Positions 3,148-51,734 of a DNA stretch of 51,974 nt are shown piece after piece. Each line of letters opens with the position of its first letter. Positions within the stretch are counted from its first letter, which is position 1. Made by a program: the position numbers and the translations under genes. The notes beneath the pieces are model-generated. The model was not told where the DNA came from, did no database searches, and was given only the letters and a program-made list of their open reading frames with translations. The stretch is from Corallococcus terminator. Its GTDB lineage: Bacteria > Myxococcota > Myxococcia > Myxococcales > Myxococcaceae. The DNA is taken from NCBI RefSeq assembly GCF_003611635.1, contig NZ_RAVZ01000018.1, positions 1 through 51,974 on the forward strand, written 5' to 3'.

Positions 3148-5513
3148 TTTCGCGCGGGATGAAGGGCGGAGCCGTGGGCTTCGTGTTGGGCGTGGGGGCC
3201 GTGGTGGTGCTGGGCATCGTGGGTGACAGCATGAGGGGACTCTTCGGGGCGTCCGCCGCCGCGCTCTCGGGAGATGCGGAGCCACCGATGATGGAGGTGG
3301 CTGCGCAGAGCCTCGCCAAGAAGAGCATGAAGTCCTTCGGCTCGGCGTCCTTCGACGAGGGCGGCCTGGGCTCGCGCGGAGCGGGACCGGGCGGCGGCGG
3401 CATGGCGCCGGCCCCGTCGGCCGCGGCCCCCGTCATGGCCGAGATGGACGACGCGGACGCGTTCGCCGAGCAGGAGAAGTCCGAACCCCCGGAGCCGGGG
3501 GCTGCCGCGCCCACCCGCGCGTGGTTCCCGGAGACGTTCCTCTTCGAGCCCCTGGTGGTGACGGACGCAAGCGGCCAGGCGACGGTGCCCGTGCGCGTGC
3601 CGGATCGGCTGACGCAGTGGCGGGTGCTGGCGCTCGCGCACTCGCGCTCCGGTGCCCAGGCCGGCGCGGTGACGTCCTTCGCGGGCACGCTGCCCACCTA
3701 CGTGGATCCGGTGCTGCCGCCCTTCCTGCGCGCGGGCGACACGGTGCGCCTGCCGGTGCAGGTGGTGAACACCACCGACAAGGAGGTGGTGGCGGCGCTG
3801 AAGGTGGACGTGCGGGGCGCGCAGGTGGAGGCCGGCTCGCGCACGGTGAAGGTGCCCGCGCGGGGCAGCGCTGTGGAGCTGGTGACGGTGCGCGCCCAGG
3901 GCGCGGGGCCGGTGACGGTGCGGGCCTCGCTGGGTGACGCCGACGCGGTGGTGCGCGACTTCGACGTGTGGGCCACCGGGCAGCCCGTGGTCCAGACGCG
4001 GGGCGGCTCGCTGGCGGCGCCGCGCACGCTGTCGCTGAGCATGCCGACGGACGCGCAGGCCGGCAGCGAACGGGTGCGGCTCCAGGTGTACCCGGGCGCG
4101 CTGGGCGTGGTGCGCGCGGAGCTGGCGGCGGTGGAGCGCAGGCCCGGGGATGTGACCGCGGATGCGTACGCGCTGCTGCTCGCGGGGCAGGCGCCCACGC
4201 TGCTCCAGGCGCTGGGCGAGACGCCGGACGCGGCTGTGCTGAAGGCCCTGGCCCAGGTGGCGGGGCAGCGGGTGCTGCGGGCAGCACGTGCTCCGTCGGT
4301 GGACGTGGCGACGCGGCTCGCGGAAGGGGCGCTGGCCCACCCGGACAACCCGGTGCTCGCGCGGCTGGGTGAGCGGCTCGTGGACCAGGTGGCGAAGGCG
4401 CAGCGGCCGGACGGCACCTGCCAGGGCGGTGAGGGCTGGCCGCTCCAGCGCCTGCTGGTGGCGACGGCGGACTGCGCGCGCACGGTGCGCGCGGCGGTGG
4501 GGACGGACGCGGGCAAGCAGCGGGCCTCGGCCTTCACCGCGCGCTCCGCCGGTGTCTTCGAGCGCTACCTGCCGCAGGTAAAGGATGGCTACACGGCGGC
4601 GGTGCTGCTGGCGGAGGGCGCGGTGACGGGCGGCGTGGCGGACGCGCTGCGCACCCGCGTGCGCGAAGCGGTGAAGCAGGGAGCTGACGGCACCGCGTCC
4701 CTGTCGGTGGAGCCGGGCACGGTGCGCGCGGACGGCCAGGAGCCCTCCGTCGTGGAGGCCACGGCGATGGCGGTGCTCGCCCTGCAGGGCGATGCGAAGG
4801 CGCCGCTGGCGGACCTGGGCGCCTTCCTGCTGGCGCGCTACTCGCCCGGCCAGGGCTGGGGGGATGGGCAGGCGAACCGCGTGGGCCTGCGCGCGGCGCT
4901 GGTGCTCTTCCGGGAGCCGCTGCCAGCCCAGGTGCGCGTGACGCTGGAGCGCGACGGGAAGACTGTCACCGAGGGCACCTACGACGCCAAGGCGCTGCGC
5001 GAGGTGCTGGCGCTGGAGGCCGCGGCCCCGGGTTCGGCGGGGACGCACGCGTGGACGGTGCGCGCGGAGCCCGCGGTGCCGGGGCTGGGCTTCTCGCTGG
5101 CGCTGGCCGCGACGGTGCCCTGGAAGAACGAGGCGAAGGGCGGCCTGGAGCTGACGGTGGATGGGCCGAAGGACGCCCGGGTGGGCCAGCTCGCGGAGGT
5201 GCGCGTGGTGCTGGGCGCGCCCTCGTTCATGCCGCTCGTGTTCCAGCAGGAGCTGCCGGCCGGCGTGCAGGTGGACACCGCCAGCCTGGACGCCCTGGTG
5301 TCGTCGGGCCGGATTGCTTCCTGGGAGGTGCAGGACGGGCTGCTGTCGCTGCGCATCGCCCCGCGGACGCAGGGCGCGGCGCCGGTGCAGGTGGCCTTCC
5401 GCGTGTTGCCCACGCTCGCCGGGACGTTGCAGGCGGGCGCCTCGCGGCTGGATGTGCCGGGGCAGCCGGGCGCCACCTCGTTGTTGCCGCCCACCACCTG
5501 GGCGGTGCGCTGA
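3144..5513 (+). CDS. Alpha-2-macroglobulin-like protein, C-terminal half, thioester motif absent
   Basis: About 789 residues from the ATG at 3144, which overlaps the previous stop (ATGA), so the two are translationally coupled. A transmembrane segment at about residues 8-28 is followed by a Gly/Ala/Pro-rich linker. The A2M core signature begins at about residue 127 (WFPETFLFEP, then TQWRVLALA). An alpha-helical region corresponding to the thioester domain follows, but no CxEQ motif is present where it would be expected: the local sequence reads RRPGDVTADAY. The protein ends with a beta-rich receptor-binding-like part. Known for the family: thioester-free macroglobulins trap proteases without covalent linkage. 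Inference: the two polypeptides assemble into one split macroglobulin on the outer face of the inner membrane. Confidence 0.85.
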   Translation: MISRGMKGGAVGFVLGVGAVVVLGIVGDSMRGLFGASAAALSGDAEPPMMEVAAQSLAKKSMKSFGSASFDEGGLGSRGAGPGGGGMAPAPSAAAPVMAEMDDADAFAEQEKSEPPEPGAAAPTRAWFPETFLFEPLVVTDASGQATVPVRVPDRLTQWRVLALAHSRSGAQAGAVTSFAGTLPTYVDPVLPPFLRAGDTVRLPVQVVNTTDKEVVAALKVDVRGAQVEAGSRTVKVPARGSAVELVTVRAQGAGPVTVRASLGDADAVVRDFDVWATGQPVVQTRGGSLAAPRTLSLSMPTDAQAGSERVRLQVYPGALGVVRAELAAVERRPGDVTADAYALLLAGQAPTLLQALGETPDAAVLKALAQVAGQRVLRAARAPSVDVATRLAEGALAHPDNPVLARLGERLVDQVAKAQRPDGTCQGGEGWPLQRLLVATADCARTVRAAVGTDAGKQRASAFTARSAGVFERYLPQVKDGYTAAVLLAEGAVTGGVADALRTRVREAVKQGADGTASLSVEPGTVRADGQEPSVVEATAMAVLALQGDAKAPLADLGAFLLARYSPGQGWGDGQANRVGLRAALVLFREPLPAQVRVTLERDGKTVTEGTYDAKALREVLALEAAAPGSAGTHAWTVRAEPAVPGLGFSLALAATVPWKNEAKGGLELTVDGPKDARVGQLAEVRVVLGAPSFMPLVFQQELPAGVQVDTASLDALVSSGRIASWEVQDGLLSLRIAPRTQGAAPVQVAFRVLPTLAGTLQAGASRLDVPGQPGATSLLPPTTWAVR

Positions 5514-5521
5514 ACCGGAGC

Positions 5522-5537
5522 GGGGTGCTCGCACCCC
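5522..5537 (+). terminator. Short hairpin just after the macroglobulin pair
   Basis: GGGGTG and CACCCC pair around a CTCG loop nine bases after the stop of the second macroglobulin gene. There is no T tract, so if it ends transcription it does so in a GC-rich, T-poor form. Confidence 0.35.
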
Positions 5538-5765
5538 TCCCCGAAGTCCCTGGGGCATCGGACCTGGGTCCAGCTCAGGGTCATTCCCCACTCCCGACCT
5601 GGGGGCCGCGCCGTCCGTCCGGCCGCGGGCGACGCGGGGTGGAGGGCGGAGGTGGCGCGGGGGCCCGGCCCGGCGAGCGCTCCGGTCGCAGTGCAATCGC
5701 GGCCCGCATGCGTACACTGCAAGTCACACGGCAGGCGTGAGCTGAGCGGCCGCGAGAGGACACGG

Positions 5766-6800
5766 ATGGAGCTTGAAGGCTCCGAGCGGGAGGAACTCAC
5801 CCACGCCCTCCTGGGCGCATTCGCCTCGGTGGAGGAGCTCCACCGGATGGTCACGGTGAAGTGCGGTCGGGAGCTCGCGCCCCTCGTGGAGCGCGAGAGC
5901 GCGGCCCGGGCCCGGACGCTCGTGCACACCGCGGAAGCGGAAGGGTGGACGGACGTGCTCGTGCGCGGCGCGCAGGCGGCGGCGCCGGGCCATCCGCGCA
6001 TCCGCCGCTTCCTCCAGTCGTATTTCTCCTCCGTGCAGCGCAGCGTGTCCGGCAGTGCGTTGGCGCGCATCGTCCAGGCGGCGAAGCAGCCCATGACGCC
6101 GGAGGCCTGGAGGGACCGGCTGGCCCTCCTGTCGCGGCGGGTGTGCCGGGTGGAACTGGACGGAGGCCGCGCGCTGGGCACGGGCTTCCTGGTGGCGCCG
6201 GACGTGGTGCTCACCAATTCGCACGTCATCGAGCACCGGTTGGTGGAGGCGCTGCGCGTGCGCTTCGACCTGAAGGTGCTGCCGGACCGCATCGCGGTGC
6301 ACCCCGGCCGCGTGTACGCGGTGACGGCGTGCCTGGCGCAGAGTCCGCACAGCCCGGCGGACCTGATGCACCCGCGTCCCCGGGAAGCCACGCGCGACGA
6401 ACTGGACTACGCCTTCTTGCAGATTGAGGACGCCCCCGGTGATGACCGGCTGGGCGACCGTCCGCGCGGCTTCATCCCGCTGCCCCCGTCGCCCACGCCC
6501 TTCACCACCGGCTCGCTGGCGCTCGTCATGCAGCACCCCAAGGGCCGGCCGATGCAGGTGGCGCTGGACACGTTCCAGGCGCTCAACCGTTCGCGGACGC
6601 GCATCACGTACTGCACCAACACGCACCCGGGTTCGTCCGGTTCGCCGTGCTTCACGCAGGACCTGGAGCTGGTCGCGCTGCACCACAGCGGAGACCCGCG
6701 CCCCGGCCACGAAGCCGCCGAGGACGACGAGGGCATCCCCCTGGAGACCATCCGCGCCAGCCTGCCGCCCGGCGTGTTGCGCCGCCTGGGCTGGGACTGA
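5766..6800 (+). CDS. EAD1-like effector-associated domain fused to trypsin-like serine protease
   Basis: 344 residues from the ATG at 5766, preceded by GAGAGGA at good spacing; the frame runs open further upstream but without similar support. Residues 8-90 match the pattern of effector-associated domain 1: ELTHALLGAF, then helices ending in HPRIRRFLQSY. EADs are small helical adaptors that recruit proteases, nucleases or NTPases in bacterial conflict and signalling systems (known for the family). Residues 120-335 are a trypsin-like peptidase fold with a complete triad: His153 (TNSHVI), Asp214 (ELDYAF), Ser291 (PGSSGSP). No signal peptide, so it should act in the cytoplasm. The next gene lies 54 bases downstream on the same strand and may be a partner. 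A matching EAD on another protein is not seen in this window. Confidence 0.8.
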   Translation: MELEGSEREELTHALLGAFASVEELHRMVTVKCGRELAPLVERESAARARTLVHTAEAEGWTDVLVRGAQAAAPGHPRIRRFLQSYFSSVQRSVSGSALARIVQAAKQPMTPEAWRDRLALLSRRVCRVELDGGRALGTGFLVAPDVVLTNSHVIEHRLVEALRVRFDLKVLPDRIAVHPGRVYAVTACLAQSPHSPADLMHPRPREATRDELDYAFLQIEDAPGDDRLGDRPRGFIPLPPSPTPFTTGSLALVMQHPKGRPMQVALDTFQALNRSRTRITYCTNTHPGSSGSPCFTQDLELVALHHSGDPRPGHEAAEDDEGIPLETIRASLPPGVLRRLGWD

Positions 6801-6854
6801 CGACACGCGCTGTTGGGATGCGGGGCCAGGGGAGGGGACTGCTATCGTCCACGC

Positions 6855-9236
6855 ATGGGCCTTCCCGCTCGAAGTCGCACGACCGTGACCGTCTTCCCGC
6901 GCGCAGCAGCGGGCCTGACGTGGGCGGTGCTCTGCCTGCTTCCGACGCTCGCGCTCGCGGCGCCGCGCTTCAGCGTCGCGGGGGTGAACGCCAACAACGA
7001 GGTGCGGCTGCGCACGTCCACCGGGCACGTGGAGACGGTGCTGCGCGTGGACCTGCTGACCGCGTCCGCGGAAGCAGGAGGCGAAGCACCGGCGGACACG
7101 CGGTTGACGGTGCTGGTGGATCCGCTGCTGTCCACGGACGGCACGCAGGTGCCGGTGACGGTGCGTGTGGGGACGGCGGCGGACGGCGCGATGGAGGCGC
7201 CCATCTCCGTGCGGCAGCCGGTGACGGTGGCGCTGACCGCGGAGCTGCCCTCGCCCGGTGAGTACAAAGGCCGCGTGGTGCTGTTGGGGGACGGCGTGCG
7301 GGAGGTGGCCACGCTCGTCATCCAGCGCGTGGCGGTGGCCCCGACGGTGCAGTTCTACCCGGTGTCGCCCGCGCGTGGCTGGACGCTGGGCCCCTTCTCC
7401 GGGAAGGCCACGGTGCGGCTGACCTTCAAGGAGACGGCGGGCGTGGGTGGCGAGGTGGGGCCCGCGGCGGTGGTGCAGTTGGACCGCAAGGAGGGCGGGG
7501 CGGGCAACGGCGCCGCGCCCGTGCAGGCGCAGGACGCGCACTGGTCCTTCCGGGGACAGGCCGCCTCGGGCGACGACGCCAGCGCGGAAGGCGGCGCGGG
7601 CAAGGGGGGCGTGTTCCAGGTGCCCGCGAACGGCACGGGCCTCTTGAGCCTGGATGTGGACGGCCTGCCGGAGTCCGGCGAGTACACCGGCACGGTGCGG
7701 CTGCTCGTGCCCCAGGGCGCGCCGGTGGAGCAGACCTTCACCGTCTGGGTGAAGACGCCGGCCCTGTGGGGCGCGTTCCTCATCTTCCTGGGCGTGGTGA
7801 CGTCCGCGGCGGTGCGCTTCTACGTGCAGCGCGTGCGCCCGCGCGTGACGCTGCGCGGCCGGGCGGAGGCGGCGCGCCACAAGTTGCAGGAGCTGGTGCC
7901 CGCCCGTCCGCTGGAGCGCGAGGCGGCGGTGGCCGCGTCGCTGCGGCGGCAGGTGGACGCGCTGTTGGAGAACATCCAGCGGCCCCTGAGCGGGCTGGTG
8001 GTGCAGGACTCGGTGCTGTCGCTCTTCGAAGCGCGTCTCCAGTTGTTCTCGCTCTGGTCCGTCCTCCTGCGCCAGTTGGAAGCGCTCAAGGGCATGGCCC
8101 TGCTGGACGCGGAGAAGAAGCTCAAGGCGGTGGAGACGCTGCTCCAGAACGACCAGGCCACGTCCGCGGACTTCACGGAGCAGGCGCAGTACCTGCGCAC
8201 GCTGGACCTGGAGGGCGTGGCCCGCGCGGTGCTGGCGTCGCGGCTGGAGGAGCTGGAGCAGCAATCCCAGACACTGGTCTCCCAGCGCGGAGACGACGCG
8301 GTGAGCCGCCGGCTCCAGGGGGAGCTTCCCCTGTACCTGTTGCGAGCGCGGCAGCAGCTTCCCGGCACCGACCTGGACACGTCGCGCCGGCTGGTGGACA
8401 CCGCGCGCGAGGCGTTCCTCGAAATCCTCCTGTCGGACCTGGAGGGCTCACTCTCCGGCCGGGAGTTGCCCGGGGGCTTCACGCCGGAGGAGTGGGCGGA
8501 GCTGCGCACGCGCGTGGCGGAGCAGCTTGCCCGGGCGCGGGCGCGCAAGTCGGCCAGCGTGGACGAGGCCTTCCTGTACTACCAGTCCGCGCAGGCGCTG
8601 TACCTGCGCGCGCTGGTGGACAACCTGGAGGAGGCGCTGACGGCCGCCCATGCGGAGGTGGGAGGCGACATGGGGGCCCTGTCGGAGTGGGAGTCGGAGG
8701 TGGATGAGCGGCTCAAGTCGGCGCGCGCGCACCTGGACCAGGGCGAGGCGAACCTGGCCACGCCCGACTACCGCGCCGCCCGCGAGTCCTTCGAGCGCCA
8801 CGCGACGCTGCGACAGAAGGCGGCGTCCATCGGCGGCCGGCAGTCGGTGATGGAGCCGTACCCGGACGTGACGCTGGACCCCTTCTCGCAGAAGCCCGCG
8901 GAGGCCCCGCCGCCGCTGCCCGGCGCGCCCGCGGGCGGCAGCATCACGCCCCTGCCTCCGCCGGGAACCACGAAGACGGGCACCGACGCGCTGGTGAACC
9001 TGGACTGGATTCCCCTTCCGCGCTCCAGCGACCTGTGGAAGGTGGAGCTCGCGGTGCTGGGGATGATGTCCATCATCGCGGTGCTGCTGGGGCTCCAGTT
9101 GCTGGATGTCTTCTCCCCCACGTGGGGCGGCTCCGGCGCGTGGATGTCCGCCTTCCTCTGGGGCTTCGGCCTGCACCAGGTGGGCAACGCCACCTTCGAC
9201 GGCCTGTGGGGCATGGTGTCGAAGCTGGAGAAGTAG
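6855..9236 (+). CDS. Large membrane protein: secreted beta domains, transmembrane segment, long cytoplasmic helical region
   Basis: 793 residues from the ATG at 6855. The nearest purine-rich run is about 20 bases upstream, so the start is weakly supported. A signal peptide (about residues 12-36, ending LALAAP) leads into a roughly 270-residue beta-rich ectodomain with two similar units, marked GEYKGRVVLL and GEYTGTVRLL. A transmembrane helix follows at about 302-325, then about 400 residues of charged helix and coiled coil, a Pro-rich linker, and two hydrophobic segments at about 729-752 and 763-788. I recognise no named family. It follows the EAD-protease with no obvious terminator between them, so co-transcription is plausible. 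The architecture suggests a link between envelope events and a cytoplasmic partner. Confidence 0.75.
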   Translation: MGLPARSRTTVTVFPRAAAGLTWAVLCLLPTLALAAPRFSVAGVNANNEVRLRTSTGHVETVLRVDLLTASAEAGGEAPADTRLTVLVDPLLSTDGTQVPVTVRVGTAADGAMEAPISVRQPVTVALTAELPSPGEYKGRVVLLGDGVREVATLVIQRVAVAPTVQFYPVSPARGWTLGPFSGKATVRLTFKETAGVGGEVGPAAVVQLDRKEGGAGNGAAPVQAQDAHWSFRGQAASGDDASAEGGAGKGGVFQVPANGTGLLSLDVDGLPESGEYTGTVRLLVPQGAPVEQTFTVWVKTPALWGAFLIFLGVVTSAAVRFYVQRVRPRVTLRGRAEAARHKLQELVPARPLEREAAVAASLRRQVDALLENIQRPLSGLVVQDSVLSLFEARLQLFSLWSVLLRQLEALKGMALLDAEKKLKAVETLLQNDQATSADFTEQAQYLRTLDLEGVARAVLASRLEELEQQSQTLVSQRGDDAVSRRLQGELPLYLLRARQQLPGTDLDTSRRLVDTAREAFLEILLSDLEGSLSGRELPGGFTPEEWAELRTRVAEQLARARARKSASVDEAFLYYQSAQALYLRALVDNLEEALTAAHAEVGGDMGALSEWESEVDERLKSARAHLDQGEANLATPDYRAARESFERHATLRQKAASIGGRQSVMEPYPDVTLDPFSQKPAEAPPPLPGAPAGGSITPLPPPGTTKTGTDALVNLDWIPLPRSSDLWKVELAVLGMMSIIAVLLGLQLLDVFSPTWGGSGAWMSAFLWGFGLHQVGNATFDGLWGMVSKLEK

Positions 9237-48261: not shown

Positions 48262-49518
48262 TCACCCCGCGAGCCACGAGGACGCGCGTCCCAGACCCTC
48301 CGCCACGGAGGTGAATGCATCCGCGGTGCGCACGCGCTCCTCACCGAAGCGCTTCACGTACAGCTCCCGCACCGCGGGAATCTGGGACGAACCGCCCGTC
48401 AGGAACACGGCGTCAATGTCCCTGGCCTCCGAATGCTTCGCCAACAGCCCTTCGGTGCACTGCGAGAGTTCATCCAGCAACGTGGCGCTCGCCGTGTCGA
48501 ACTCGGCGCGGGTGATGGGCTCGTGCAGGCGGATGCGCGCCTCGTCGAAGTCGATGGTCGCCACGTCCTCGCTGGACAGCCGCACCTTCGCCGCTTCAAT
48601 CGACCGGAACAGCCGGTAGCCCAGGTTGTCCATCACCAGGTCGTAGAGCGCTTCGATCTCCGCCGGCCGGTCGCTCGTGTCGAGCATCACCTCCAGCAGC
48701 TCCTGCGTGGACTTCTCCCGGATGAACGACATCTCATGCCAGTTCAGCAGCTTCGCCATCACGTGCTGCGGAATGGGCATCCGCTTCTCGCTGAAGCCCT
48801 TCACCTTGTACGTGGACCCCGCCCCGAAGCGCGGCAACAGCTTGTGTCGCATGATCTCCGCGTCGAACCGGTCACCACCGATGCGCACACCCGTGGACCC
48901 CACCACGTCCGGCCTGCGGTCCAGGTTCCCTCGGCGTGACGGCCCCAGCTTCATCAGCGTCAGGTCCGTGGTGCCGGCGCCGAAGTCCGCCACCAACACC
49001 AGCTCGTCGCGCGTCAGCCGCGCCTCGTATGCGAGCGCCGCCGCGATGGGCTCGATGAGGAACTGCACGTGCGTGAAGCCCGCAAGCTCCGCCGCCTTGC
49101 GCAGCCGCTTCTCCGCCAGTGCGTCCGCGTCCGGATCCGGCGTGAACACCGCGGGCCGCCCCATCACCACCGCGTCCGGCAGCTCGCCCAGGTGCGCCCC
49201 GGCCGACTCGCGCACGCGGCGCAGCAGGATGGCCACCAGGTCCTCGATGGTGAACGTGCGCCCCTTCACCTGCGTCGCCCGGAAGGACGAGCTGTGCAGG
49301 AAGGACTTCACGGACTGGATGAACCGCCCGTTGTTGTCCTCCAGGTAGCGCTGGATGGCGTCCGCGCCCGCGAAGATCTCCTTCTCTTCCTCCGCGAAGA
49401 ACAACACGGAGCGGAACAGACGCGGCTCCGGCGTGTGGGGTTGCAGGGGCAACACGGTGCCATCCGGCAGGGCCAGGGCGGTGTTGCTGGTTCCGAAGTC
49501 GAGTCCGCAGGCGCGCAT
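48262..49518 (-). CDS. Hsp70-family (YegD-like) ATPase without substrate-binding domain
   Basis: 418 residues from the ATG at 49518; the frame is open 26 codons further up but the Hsp70 N-terminus begins here. Phosphate 1 LDFGTSNTALAL (residues about 5-16), phosphate 2 VADFGAGTTDLTL, and adenosine motif LTGGSSQIPAVREL are all present. The length matches YegD rather than DnaK: there is no C-terminal substrate-binding region. The role of this branch is unclear. It heads a minus-strand operon with a lipoprotein and an unknown protein. Confidence 0.85.
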   Translation of the reverse strand: MRACGLDFGTSNTALALPDGTVLPLQPHTPEPRLFRSVLFFAEEEKEIFAGADAIQRYLEDNNGRFIQSVKSFLHSSSFRATQVKGRTFTIEDLVAILLRRVRESAGAHLGELPDAVVMGRPAVFTPDPDADALAEKRLRKAAELAGFTHVQFLIEPIAAALAYEARLTRDELVLVADFGAGTTDLTLMKLGPSRRGNLDRRPDVVGSTGVRIGGDRFDAEIMRHKLLPRFGAGSTYKVKGFSEKRMPIPQHVMAKLLNWHEMSFIREKSTQELLEVMLDTSDRPAEIEALYDLVMDNLGYRLFRSIEAAKVRLSSEDVATIDFDEARIRLHEPITRAEFDTASATLLDELSQCTEGLLAKHSEARDIDAVFLTGGSSQIPAVRELYVKRFGEERVRTADAFTSVAEGLGRASSWLAG

Positions 49519-49677
49519 GGGGGGGCGCCCCTTATCGCCATTCCTCCGGTCGCGGTAGCCCCAAAGTGAGTGCCTGCCGTGGAGCGGGCAGGGCATCGGG
49601 CGCTCGCGGACCCATGGCTTGGTTCCCCGCGCGCCCTCGCCATCTTTGCCCTGTCATCCCTTCGACAGGAGAACCCC

Positions 49678-50603: not shown

Positions 50604-51491
50604 TTACGCGGCGAGTTCCGCCTGGTCCAGGCCGGCCTCGGCCATCAGGTTCGCCAGCTCCGCCTTCAGCTTGTCCTTGGCGCGGATCTCCAACTGACGG
50701 GCGCGCTCGCGGGAGAACCCGAAGTGCTCGCCCAGCTCGCTCAACGTCATCTCCGAATCGCTCATCACGCGCTGCTCGATGATGAAGCGCTCGCGCGGGT
50801 CCAGGCGCGTCAGGGCGCGCTGCACCAGCGTGCGGGTGAGGCCCGCCTGCTGCCGGTCCGCGACTTCATCCGCGTGGGAGGCCGCCTCGGACTCCACGAA
50901 GTCCAGGTGCGTGGCGTCCCCGTCCTCACCCACCGGCGCGTCCAGGGACAGGTCCCGGCCGCCCATGCGCTGCTCCATCTCACGCACTTCCGTGGGCTTC
51001 ACGTTCAGCTTGCGGGCGATCTCCTCCGCGTTGACGATGTGGCCGTCGCCGGCGCCCTGCTTCTCCAGCTCGCGGCGGGTGCGGGCCAGGCTGAAGAACA
51101 ACCGGCGCTGCGCCTGCGTCGTGCCCAGCTTCACCAGGCTCCAGTTGCGCAGCACGTAGTTCTGGATGTACGCGCGGATCCACCACACCGCGTAGGAGAT
51201 GAGGCGGATGCCCTTCTCCGGGTCGAACTTCTGCACGGCCTTCATCAGGCCGATGTTCGCCTCCTGGATGAGGTCCGACATCTTCAGGCCGTAGGAGCGG
51301 TACTCGTACGCCACCTTCACCACGAAGCGCAGGTTGCTCGTCACCAGGTGGTGGCCCGCGGACAGGTCACCGGCGCGGAAGCTGCGGGAGAGCGCCTGCT
51401 CCTCCTGCGGGCTCAGCAGCGGGTACTGGTTGATCTCCGAGAGGTACGTGGAGAGCGAGTCAGCAGAAGAGAAGGAGTTGGAAGCCTGCAT
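50604..51491 (-). CDS. rpoH: RpoH-type (sigma-32-like) RNA polymerase sigma factor
   Basis: 295 residues. Region 2 motifs: [19 protein letters not shown] and [16 protein letters not shown] (residues about 73-110). The RpoH box, QRRLFFSLA, lies at 128-136, which places it in the heat-shock sigma family rather than the housekeeping or extracytoplasmic ones. Region 4 helix-turn-helix: [20 protein letters not shown] (about 250-270). The length and type fit the Myxococcus xanthus sigma factor SigC, which I recall as a 295-residue RpoH-like protein; I cannot confirm identity by alignment. A sigma-54-type promoter lies upstream. Confidence 0.9.
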
Positions 51492-51554
51492 GGGGGTCTC
51501 TCGGGGAAGAGGGCGGGATGTGTTCCGCTCGTTTGCTGCGACGGGAGAACCTTT

Positions 51555-51571
51555 AGCAATGCAGGTGCCAA
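51555..51571 (-). promoter_or_regulatory. Sigma-54-type promoter of the RpoH-like sigma gene
   Basis: On the minus strand, TTGGCACC-TGCA-TTGCT: the -24 and -12 elements match the TGGCAC/TTGC consensus, and GG and GC are 12 bases apart. The predicted start is about 50 bases before the ATG at 51491. The rest of 51492-51821 holds no gene that I can support. Confidence 0.75.
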
Positions 51572-51734
51572 TGCCAGGTAACGACCAACCTCAATGATTC
51601 TGGTGGGTTGCGCGAAGGCGCTTCGATGCTTAGGGCGGAAACCGGCAGTTTTTACCGGGCCCTGATCCGAAGGTTCTTCCGGATGCCCCCCAGGGAGGGT
51701 TGCCTGCCCTCCGACCTGTGCGCAGGGGAGATCA

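Follow-up and report, generated by a model that had tools for sequence, protein, structure and literature searches.

A window of 51,974 nt of Corallococcus terminator DNA (the whole stretch analysed) carries, ahead of a SigC-type RpoH-like sigma gene, a -24/-12 element which, judged from its sequence and that of its relatives, is very probably a working sigma-54 (RpoN) promoter, opened by an enhancer-binding protein (EBP) and feeding a second gene set through the sigma factor. The element is conserved across the sampled order and is mostly accompanied, at near-fixed distances, by a palindrome and by a second conserved box. The same arrangement precedes a close duplicate of the gene, suggesting that the two copies are under common control.

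The probable promoter and its gene

The promoter core, recognised by its sequence and its conservation, is the 17-mer TTGGCACCTGCATTGCT, which runs from 51571 to 51555 on the minus strand and begins 80 bp 5' of the ATG at 51491. It fits the arrangement of GG at -24 and GC at -12, ten bases apart and in the context TGGCAC-N5-TTGCW, the sigma-54 consensus used for comparison being the one quoted in PMC2725144; the original description of a near-perfect element with correct spacing thus holds. Promoter geometry puts the predicted +1 at about 51544, within the interval 51540-51550 where the transcript start had been proposed to be mapped, and leaves about 53 nt as a predicted 5' untranslated leader (51492-51544, minus strand), containing a Shine-Dalgarno-like GAGAGA stretch at 51497-51502. 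In several sigC-type copies, not all, a leader hairpin CUCU...AGAG could form over this stretch, and an RNA thermometer in the window leader (51492-51544) is conceivable. A single match is by itself no proof of a promoter, since TGGCACNNNNNTTGCT is found 8 times in the 10.35-Mb genome and its reversed pattern twice, these genome-wide scans being pattern searches.

The gene (50604-51491, minus strand) codes for a 295-aa RpoH-like factor of the sigma-32 family, in which Pfam recognises sigma-70 regions 1.2, 2, 3 and 4, as in a full-length RpoH-type protein. With the NCBIfam models it scores 321.5 bits for the sigma-32 subfamily NF005143 (cut-off 241) and 322.0 for the RpoH model TIGR02392, just below the cut-off of 323.1. 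Three genes of the same genome exceed the NF005143 cut-off: the window gene, a sigB-type duplicate (C859; copy B) with 76-77% identity to the window protein, and a more distant relative (C172) with 43%. Both kinds are also found in M. xanthus (L047, L082), copy A being the window's kind, as well as in G062, a 9.0-Mb genome of genus g19, where copy A, with a divergent ORF on its upstream side, is at 7.43 Mb and copy B at 3.94 Mb. The latter position is compatible with sigB, numbered Mxan_3357 in PMC2875238. The position of copy A and its divergent ORF agree with the arrangement of sigC and MXAN_6208 given in PMC4320627, where a divergent gene lies upstream of sigC; on these grounds the window gene is taken as the probable ortholog of sigC (Mxan_6209).

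Near the sigma gene, past a gene on the opposite strand, the window also codes for an Hsp70-like protein (48262-49596, minus strand), YegD-like by eye. SigB, SigC and SigE are reportedly not required for the heat-shock response, going by the title of a 2001 study by Ueki and Inouye. Copies A (87%) and B (74%) of Myxococcus type are further found in a record titled Comamonas sp. KCTC 72670 (L044, L079), whose label or assembly is probably wrong.

Conservation across the order

Of 200 loci, 10 were set aside beforehand (L001-L004, L118-L123); the 190 located records were reduced to 97 by removing those with less than 150 bp of upstream sequence or with an upstream region more than 80% alike to a kept one. 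The 97 rows were split at 55% identity to the window protein, 66 reaching this value and 31 staying below it. Every 16-mer within 150 bp of the start was scored against a weighted consensus, with a maximum of 18.4 and a threshold of 16.4, both set by us; start codons were placed by homology, and some are wrong.

A -24/-12 element is present within 150 bp of the start in 61 of the 66 dereplicated upstream regions, sampled across the order, and in none of the 66 on the antisense strand, dinucleotide shuffles predicting about 1.2. Loss of the GG/GC pair in orthologues had been named as a finding that would speak against the promoter, and the pair is kept in these 61 rows; however, the threshold of 16.4 drops sites that have lost one GG or GC base, so that invariance within the 61 is not evidence. 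For this reason a second test ranked the sites of each upstream region on the seven remaining positions and took the best one; both GG and GC were then present in 58.0 of the 66 rows on the sense strand and in 0 of 66 on the antisense strand, ties being counted as fractions; outside the clade the figure, counted in the same way, is 1.3 of 31.

The 66 rows form one clade in the maximum-likelihood tree, with support of 100/99, and this clade takes in the sigB-type duplicate and Anaeromyxobacter. Presence of the element requires 7 changes on the tree against a shuffled mean of 28.2, and none of 500 shuffles is as low. The sigC-type rows (at least 80% identity) have the element in 14 of 15 cases, 73-84 bp before the start. 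Across the clade the spacer drifts, as in TGGCACCTGCATTGCT and TGGCCCGTGCGTTGCT from Corallococcus, TGGCACGTGGGTCGCA from M. xanthus and CGGCACACCGGTTGCT from Anaeromyxobacter. Five clade rows are without an element within 150 bp: the sisters L094 and L106, together with L100, look like true absences or wrong starts, L095 has a site scoring 17.4 at -151, and in L049 the start is misassigned. Ahead of neighbouring ORFs of the same loci, picked by composition, the element occurs in 3 of 101 upstream regions, two of these matches lying in one kinase operon that two related genomes share.

Most of the RpoH-like genes sampled from other parts of the phylum are without the element: it is found in 2 of the 31 rows outside the clade (weak in L126, perfect in L197), with 0.54 expected, and in 3 of 31, with L117 added, when the search is widened to 300 bp, a soft count because some starts are misassigned there, that of L117 truly lying about 237 bp further up. 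The L197 gene, a 44% RpoH relative in a different family (G102, family f17), carries TGGCACACTCCTTGCT 71 bp ahead of its start and may be a case of separate or earlier origin. The third RpoH-like paralog, represented in the own genome by the C172 gene (L117/L249; also L252-L254), has GGGCATARCCCCTGCA, which may or may not be a sigma-54 promoter, 61 bp before the likely start in 4 of 12 loci, and in the other 8 nothing reaches 16.4.

Altogether, conservation, the flank-chosen test and the single well-supported clade strongly support the original prediction of a sigma-54 promoter ahead of an RpoH-like sigma gene.

The upstream palindrome, the second box and candidate activators

An EM search on the 197 bp ahead of the element, with no symmetry imposed, returned the motif CCTGTAA...tTACcGg, whose start lies 86-93 bp ahead of the T of TGG in 42 of the 61 rows; it reaches a likelihood of 354, where four mononucleotide shuffles give 48-59, a difference inflated by related sequences. 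The motif is a palindrome of the family CTGTAA-N3-TTAC(C/A)G, usually about 90 bp ahead of the -24 box, and its window copy CCGGTAAAAACTGCCGG, with a degenerate right half, lies at 51642-51658 on the minus strand as a candidate EBP site. Upstream activator sites had been described as not identifiable by eye; candidate sites become visible once relatives are compared. Scored over 350 bp against a 12-position consensus, the palindrome reaches at least 10 matches in 48 of the 66 rows of the clade (11 with the reversed control) and in 3 of the 31 rows outside it (3 with the reversed control); at least 11 matches are reached in 25 clade rows (control 1) and in 0 outside (control 1). At least 10 of 12 positions match between -160 and -60 in 46 of the 61 promoter-bearing rows, and further copies are found farther upstream in L173, L132, L102, L105 and L134. 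The exact form CTGTAANNNTTACMG has no match in the own genome. In C. praedator (L035) and in M. xanthus copy B (L082) the next upstream gene is co-directional, and thus the upstream sites there serve no divergent gene; besides G062 copy A, a divergent ORF is apparently found upstream in Anaeromyxobacter L102. The spacing of the palindrome is presumably unlike that of the MrpC consensus, and MrpC was set aside as its owner; an MrpC site near sigC is discussed in PMC4320627.

Between the palindrome and the promoter there is a second conserved box, CAACCCACCAGAATCATTGAGG in the window (51589-51610, minus strand), with the consensus CAA.CCCCcG.A.tCACtgGGg. In 42 of the 61 rows it could be placed with confidence, and in 39 of these it begins 39-43 bp before the T of TGG; its likelihood of 299 against 68-77 in shuffles is again inflated by related sequences. 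The sigB-type duplicate has the same cassette of palindrome, second box and -24/-12 element, and since both duplicates have it, one activator could serve the sigB and the sigC types.

The combination of palindrome and promoter was searched in 92 family genomes with the exact pattern GTAANNNTTACN{60,90}TGGCAYNNNNNTTGC, which has 52 matches spread over 51 genomes; its reversal has none. A sigma gene follows within 250 bp in 30 of the 30 loci fetched, and the other 22 matches were assigned to sigma-gene coordinates by eye; by identities and coordinates, 50 are sigB-type and 2 sigC-type (G007, G073). As the pattern was written from the motif, its informative part is that nothing else matched, and as it is exact, degenerate copies, the window's own site included, and variants before other genes are missed. 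A wider regulon for the palindrome was set aside, the exact composite finding RpoH-like genes only in the 92 genomes.

Two candidate activators were considered and rejected. An NtrC-type EBP gene with GAFTDA in place of GAFTGA (GSFTDA in L109) is convergent to the RpoH-like gene in 18 loci of Anaeromyxobacteraceae and allied families, some from one genome counted twice; in L102 this EBP locus (4993-7877, minus strand) has as its neighbour a histidine kinase bearing a CxxCH motif. The best Corallococcus matches of this EBP reach only 44-45%, and no palindrome above 9/12 was found upstream of the neighbouring kinase in the 6 loci with a start found. A sigma-54-like site scoring 16.7 lies upstream of the kinase gene in L108, L113 and L114. 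HsfA, acting through a site common with lonD, was the other candidate; the two lon genes of the own genome are without the palindrome (best 9/12), and no strong -24/-12 element was found near their starts, the best being 15.4 in L201, with a site of 16.4 in L202 at 313 bp before the open frame. Among the candidates examined, no EBP was assigned to the palindrome.

A proposed circuit, its alternatives and known systems

In the proposed mechanism, the RpoN holoenzyme would sit as a closed complex on the -24/-12 element at 51555-51571, while a starvation- or stress-responsive EBP, probably a dimer or higher oligomer, would bind the palindrome near 51650. From there, about 106 bp before the predicted start, the EBP would contact the RpoN complex by looping and open it, and the newly made SigB/SigC-type factor would redirect polymerase, thereby switching on the second gene set. 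Use of the site by RpoN polymerase, the role of the palindrome as EBP site and the nature of the signal are what we infer from the arrangement of the elements.

Published expression data agree in part with the sigma cascade in starvation or development to which the promoter was originally assigned. During glycerol-induced sporulation of M. xanthus rpoN belongs to an early class, and sigB and sigC are upregulated in a later class, with table values of 50.5 and 140.5 (PMC2875238). In the starvation transcriptome of PMC6791715 rpoN rises throughout development and sigC is developmentally regulated (developmental group 7), while sigB is not named in the portions of that text available; moreover, SigC negatively regulates development (PMC4320627). 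Thus, as far as these sources go, support for a joint rise of sigB and sigC comes from a single condition, glycerol-induced sporulation, and the developmental reading is supported indirectly; the original description was right about the element and about the cascade to which it points. Sigma-54 itself is reportedly vital for M. xanthus, going by the title of a 1997 study by Keseler and Kaiser.

Resemblance by chance in a high-GC intergenic region is a negligible prospect: isolated matches do happen, as the eight genomic copies of TGGCACNNNNNTTGCT attest, but the element is in 61 of 66 rows, with none on the antisense strand and about 1.2 predicted by shuffles, and sites picked by their flanks give 58.0 rows on the sense and none on the antisense strand. 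The controls with the opposite strand, shuffles, neighbouring genes, genes outside the clade and flank-chosen sites together rule chance out. A different reading accepts the element as real and bound by RpoN, but with a minor or repressive role, the main driver being another, unrecognised promoter of RpoD or ECF type, much as E. coli rpoH has several promoters. The Salmonella rpoH gene offers a precedent: it has a sigma-54 site, TGGCACGGTTGTTGCTCG, and yet its reporter is as high or higher in an rpoN mutant, likely owing to other promoters (PMC3844500); repressive RpoN promoters also exist as a class (PMC8743547), and the second conserved box, which has no assigned role, counts for this reading as well. 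Conversely, an activated promoter needs a near-fixed element and a palindrome at activator distance, and both are seen; the rise of sigB and sigC after rpoN in glycerol-induced M. xanthus (PMC2875238) also speaks against this reading, which we regard as improbable.

Rather less improbable, though still unlikely, is that a different regulator, such as a repressor or one-component factor, binds the palindrome, with the EBP working from another place or from solution. The lack of an EBP assigned to the palindrome speaks for this, as does the finding of the exact composite only before RpoH-like genes, a restriction not usually seen when an EBP has a broad regulon. On the other hand, the centre of the palindrome, about 106 bp before the predicted start, is at the usual place for EBP sites, extra copies occur farther upstream in some loci, and its GT-N7-AC geometry presumably resembles that of NorR.

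Returning to an EBP-activated sigma-54 promoter, a bolder version stands, in our estimate, at even chances: one dedicated EBP would run the whole SigB/SigC branch through the GTAA-N3-TTAC palindrome, in a circuit dating from near the base of the order, before fruiting, copied with the gene duplications and later used in sporulation. Anaeromyxobacter is not known to form fruiting bodies, and the presence of the circuit there would make it older than fruiting-body development. If true, such a circuit would link the developmental cascade of sigma-54 to one of sigma-32 type. In Myxococcus, sigB and sigC are established developmental sigma genes. A sigma-54 promoter and an upstream site common to sigB and sigC would give a direct, testable reason for their rise in a later class than rpoN, and the palindrome can serve as bait for finding the activator. 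Sigma-54 above sigB and sigC would also be relevant to a suggestion, quoted in PMC2875238, by which development in myxobacteria depends on cascades of regulators other than sigma factors.

No earlier report of these promoters was recognised in the literature searched, although they may have been predicted before; as far as that literature shows, what is new is the order-wide conservation, the palindrome and the second box that the sigB and sigC types have in common, and their likely joint control. For M. xanthus sigC (Mxan_6209) and sigB (Mxan_3357), the probable orthologs of the window gene and of its 76-77% duplicate, no sigma-54 promoter is named in the available portions of PMC2875238, PMC4320627 and PMC6791715. 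In the HsfBA phosphorelay and lonD of M. xanthus (PMC9109919) a myxobacterial heat-shock gene is again under an NtrC-like activator, but the two lon genes of the Corallococcus genome have neither the palindrome nor a strong -24/-12 element near their start. A cascade from sigma-54 to a sigma-70-family factor is also found in the fliA operon of Geobacter sulfurreducens, which, unlike the RpoH-like gene here, encodes a flagellar sigma factor (PMC2725144).

A close parallel is rpoH of E. coli and Salmonella, in which a -24/-12 element likewise lies ahead of an RpoH-family sigma gene. A sigma-54 promoter of rpoH was reportedly the subject of work by Janaszak et al. in 2007. Such a promoter is already known in E. 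coli and Salmonella (PMC3844500), where the heat-shock gene has several promoters, this one among them. In myxobacteria, by contrast, the element, usually together with the palindrome, is found across the sampled order before RpoH paralogs reported to be dispensable for heat shock, and the placing of an RpoH-type sigma factor under sigma-54 would there be deeply conserved. The surprise lies in the likely dedication and age of the arrangement more than in the element itself.
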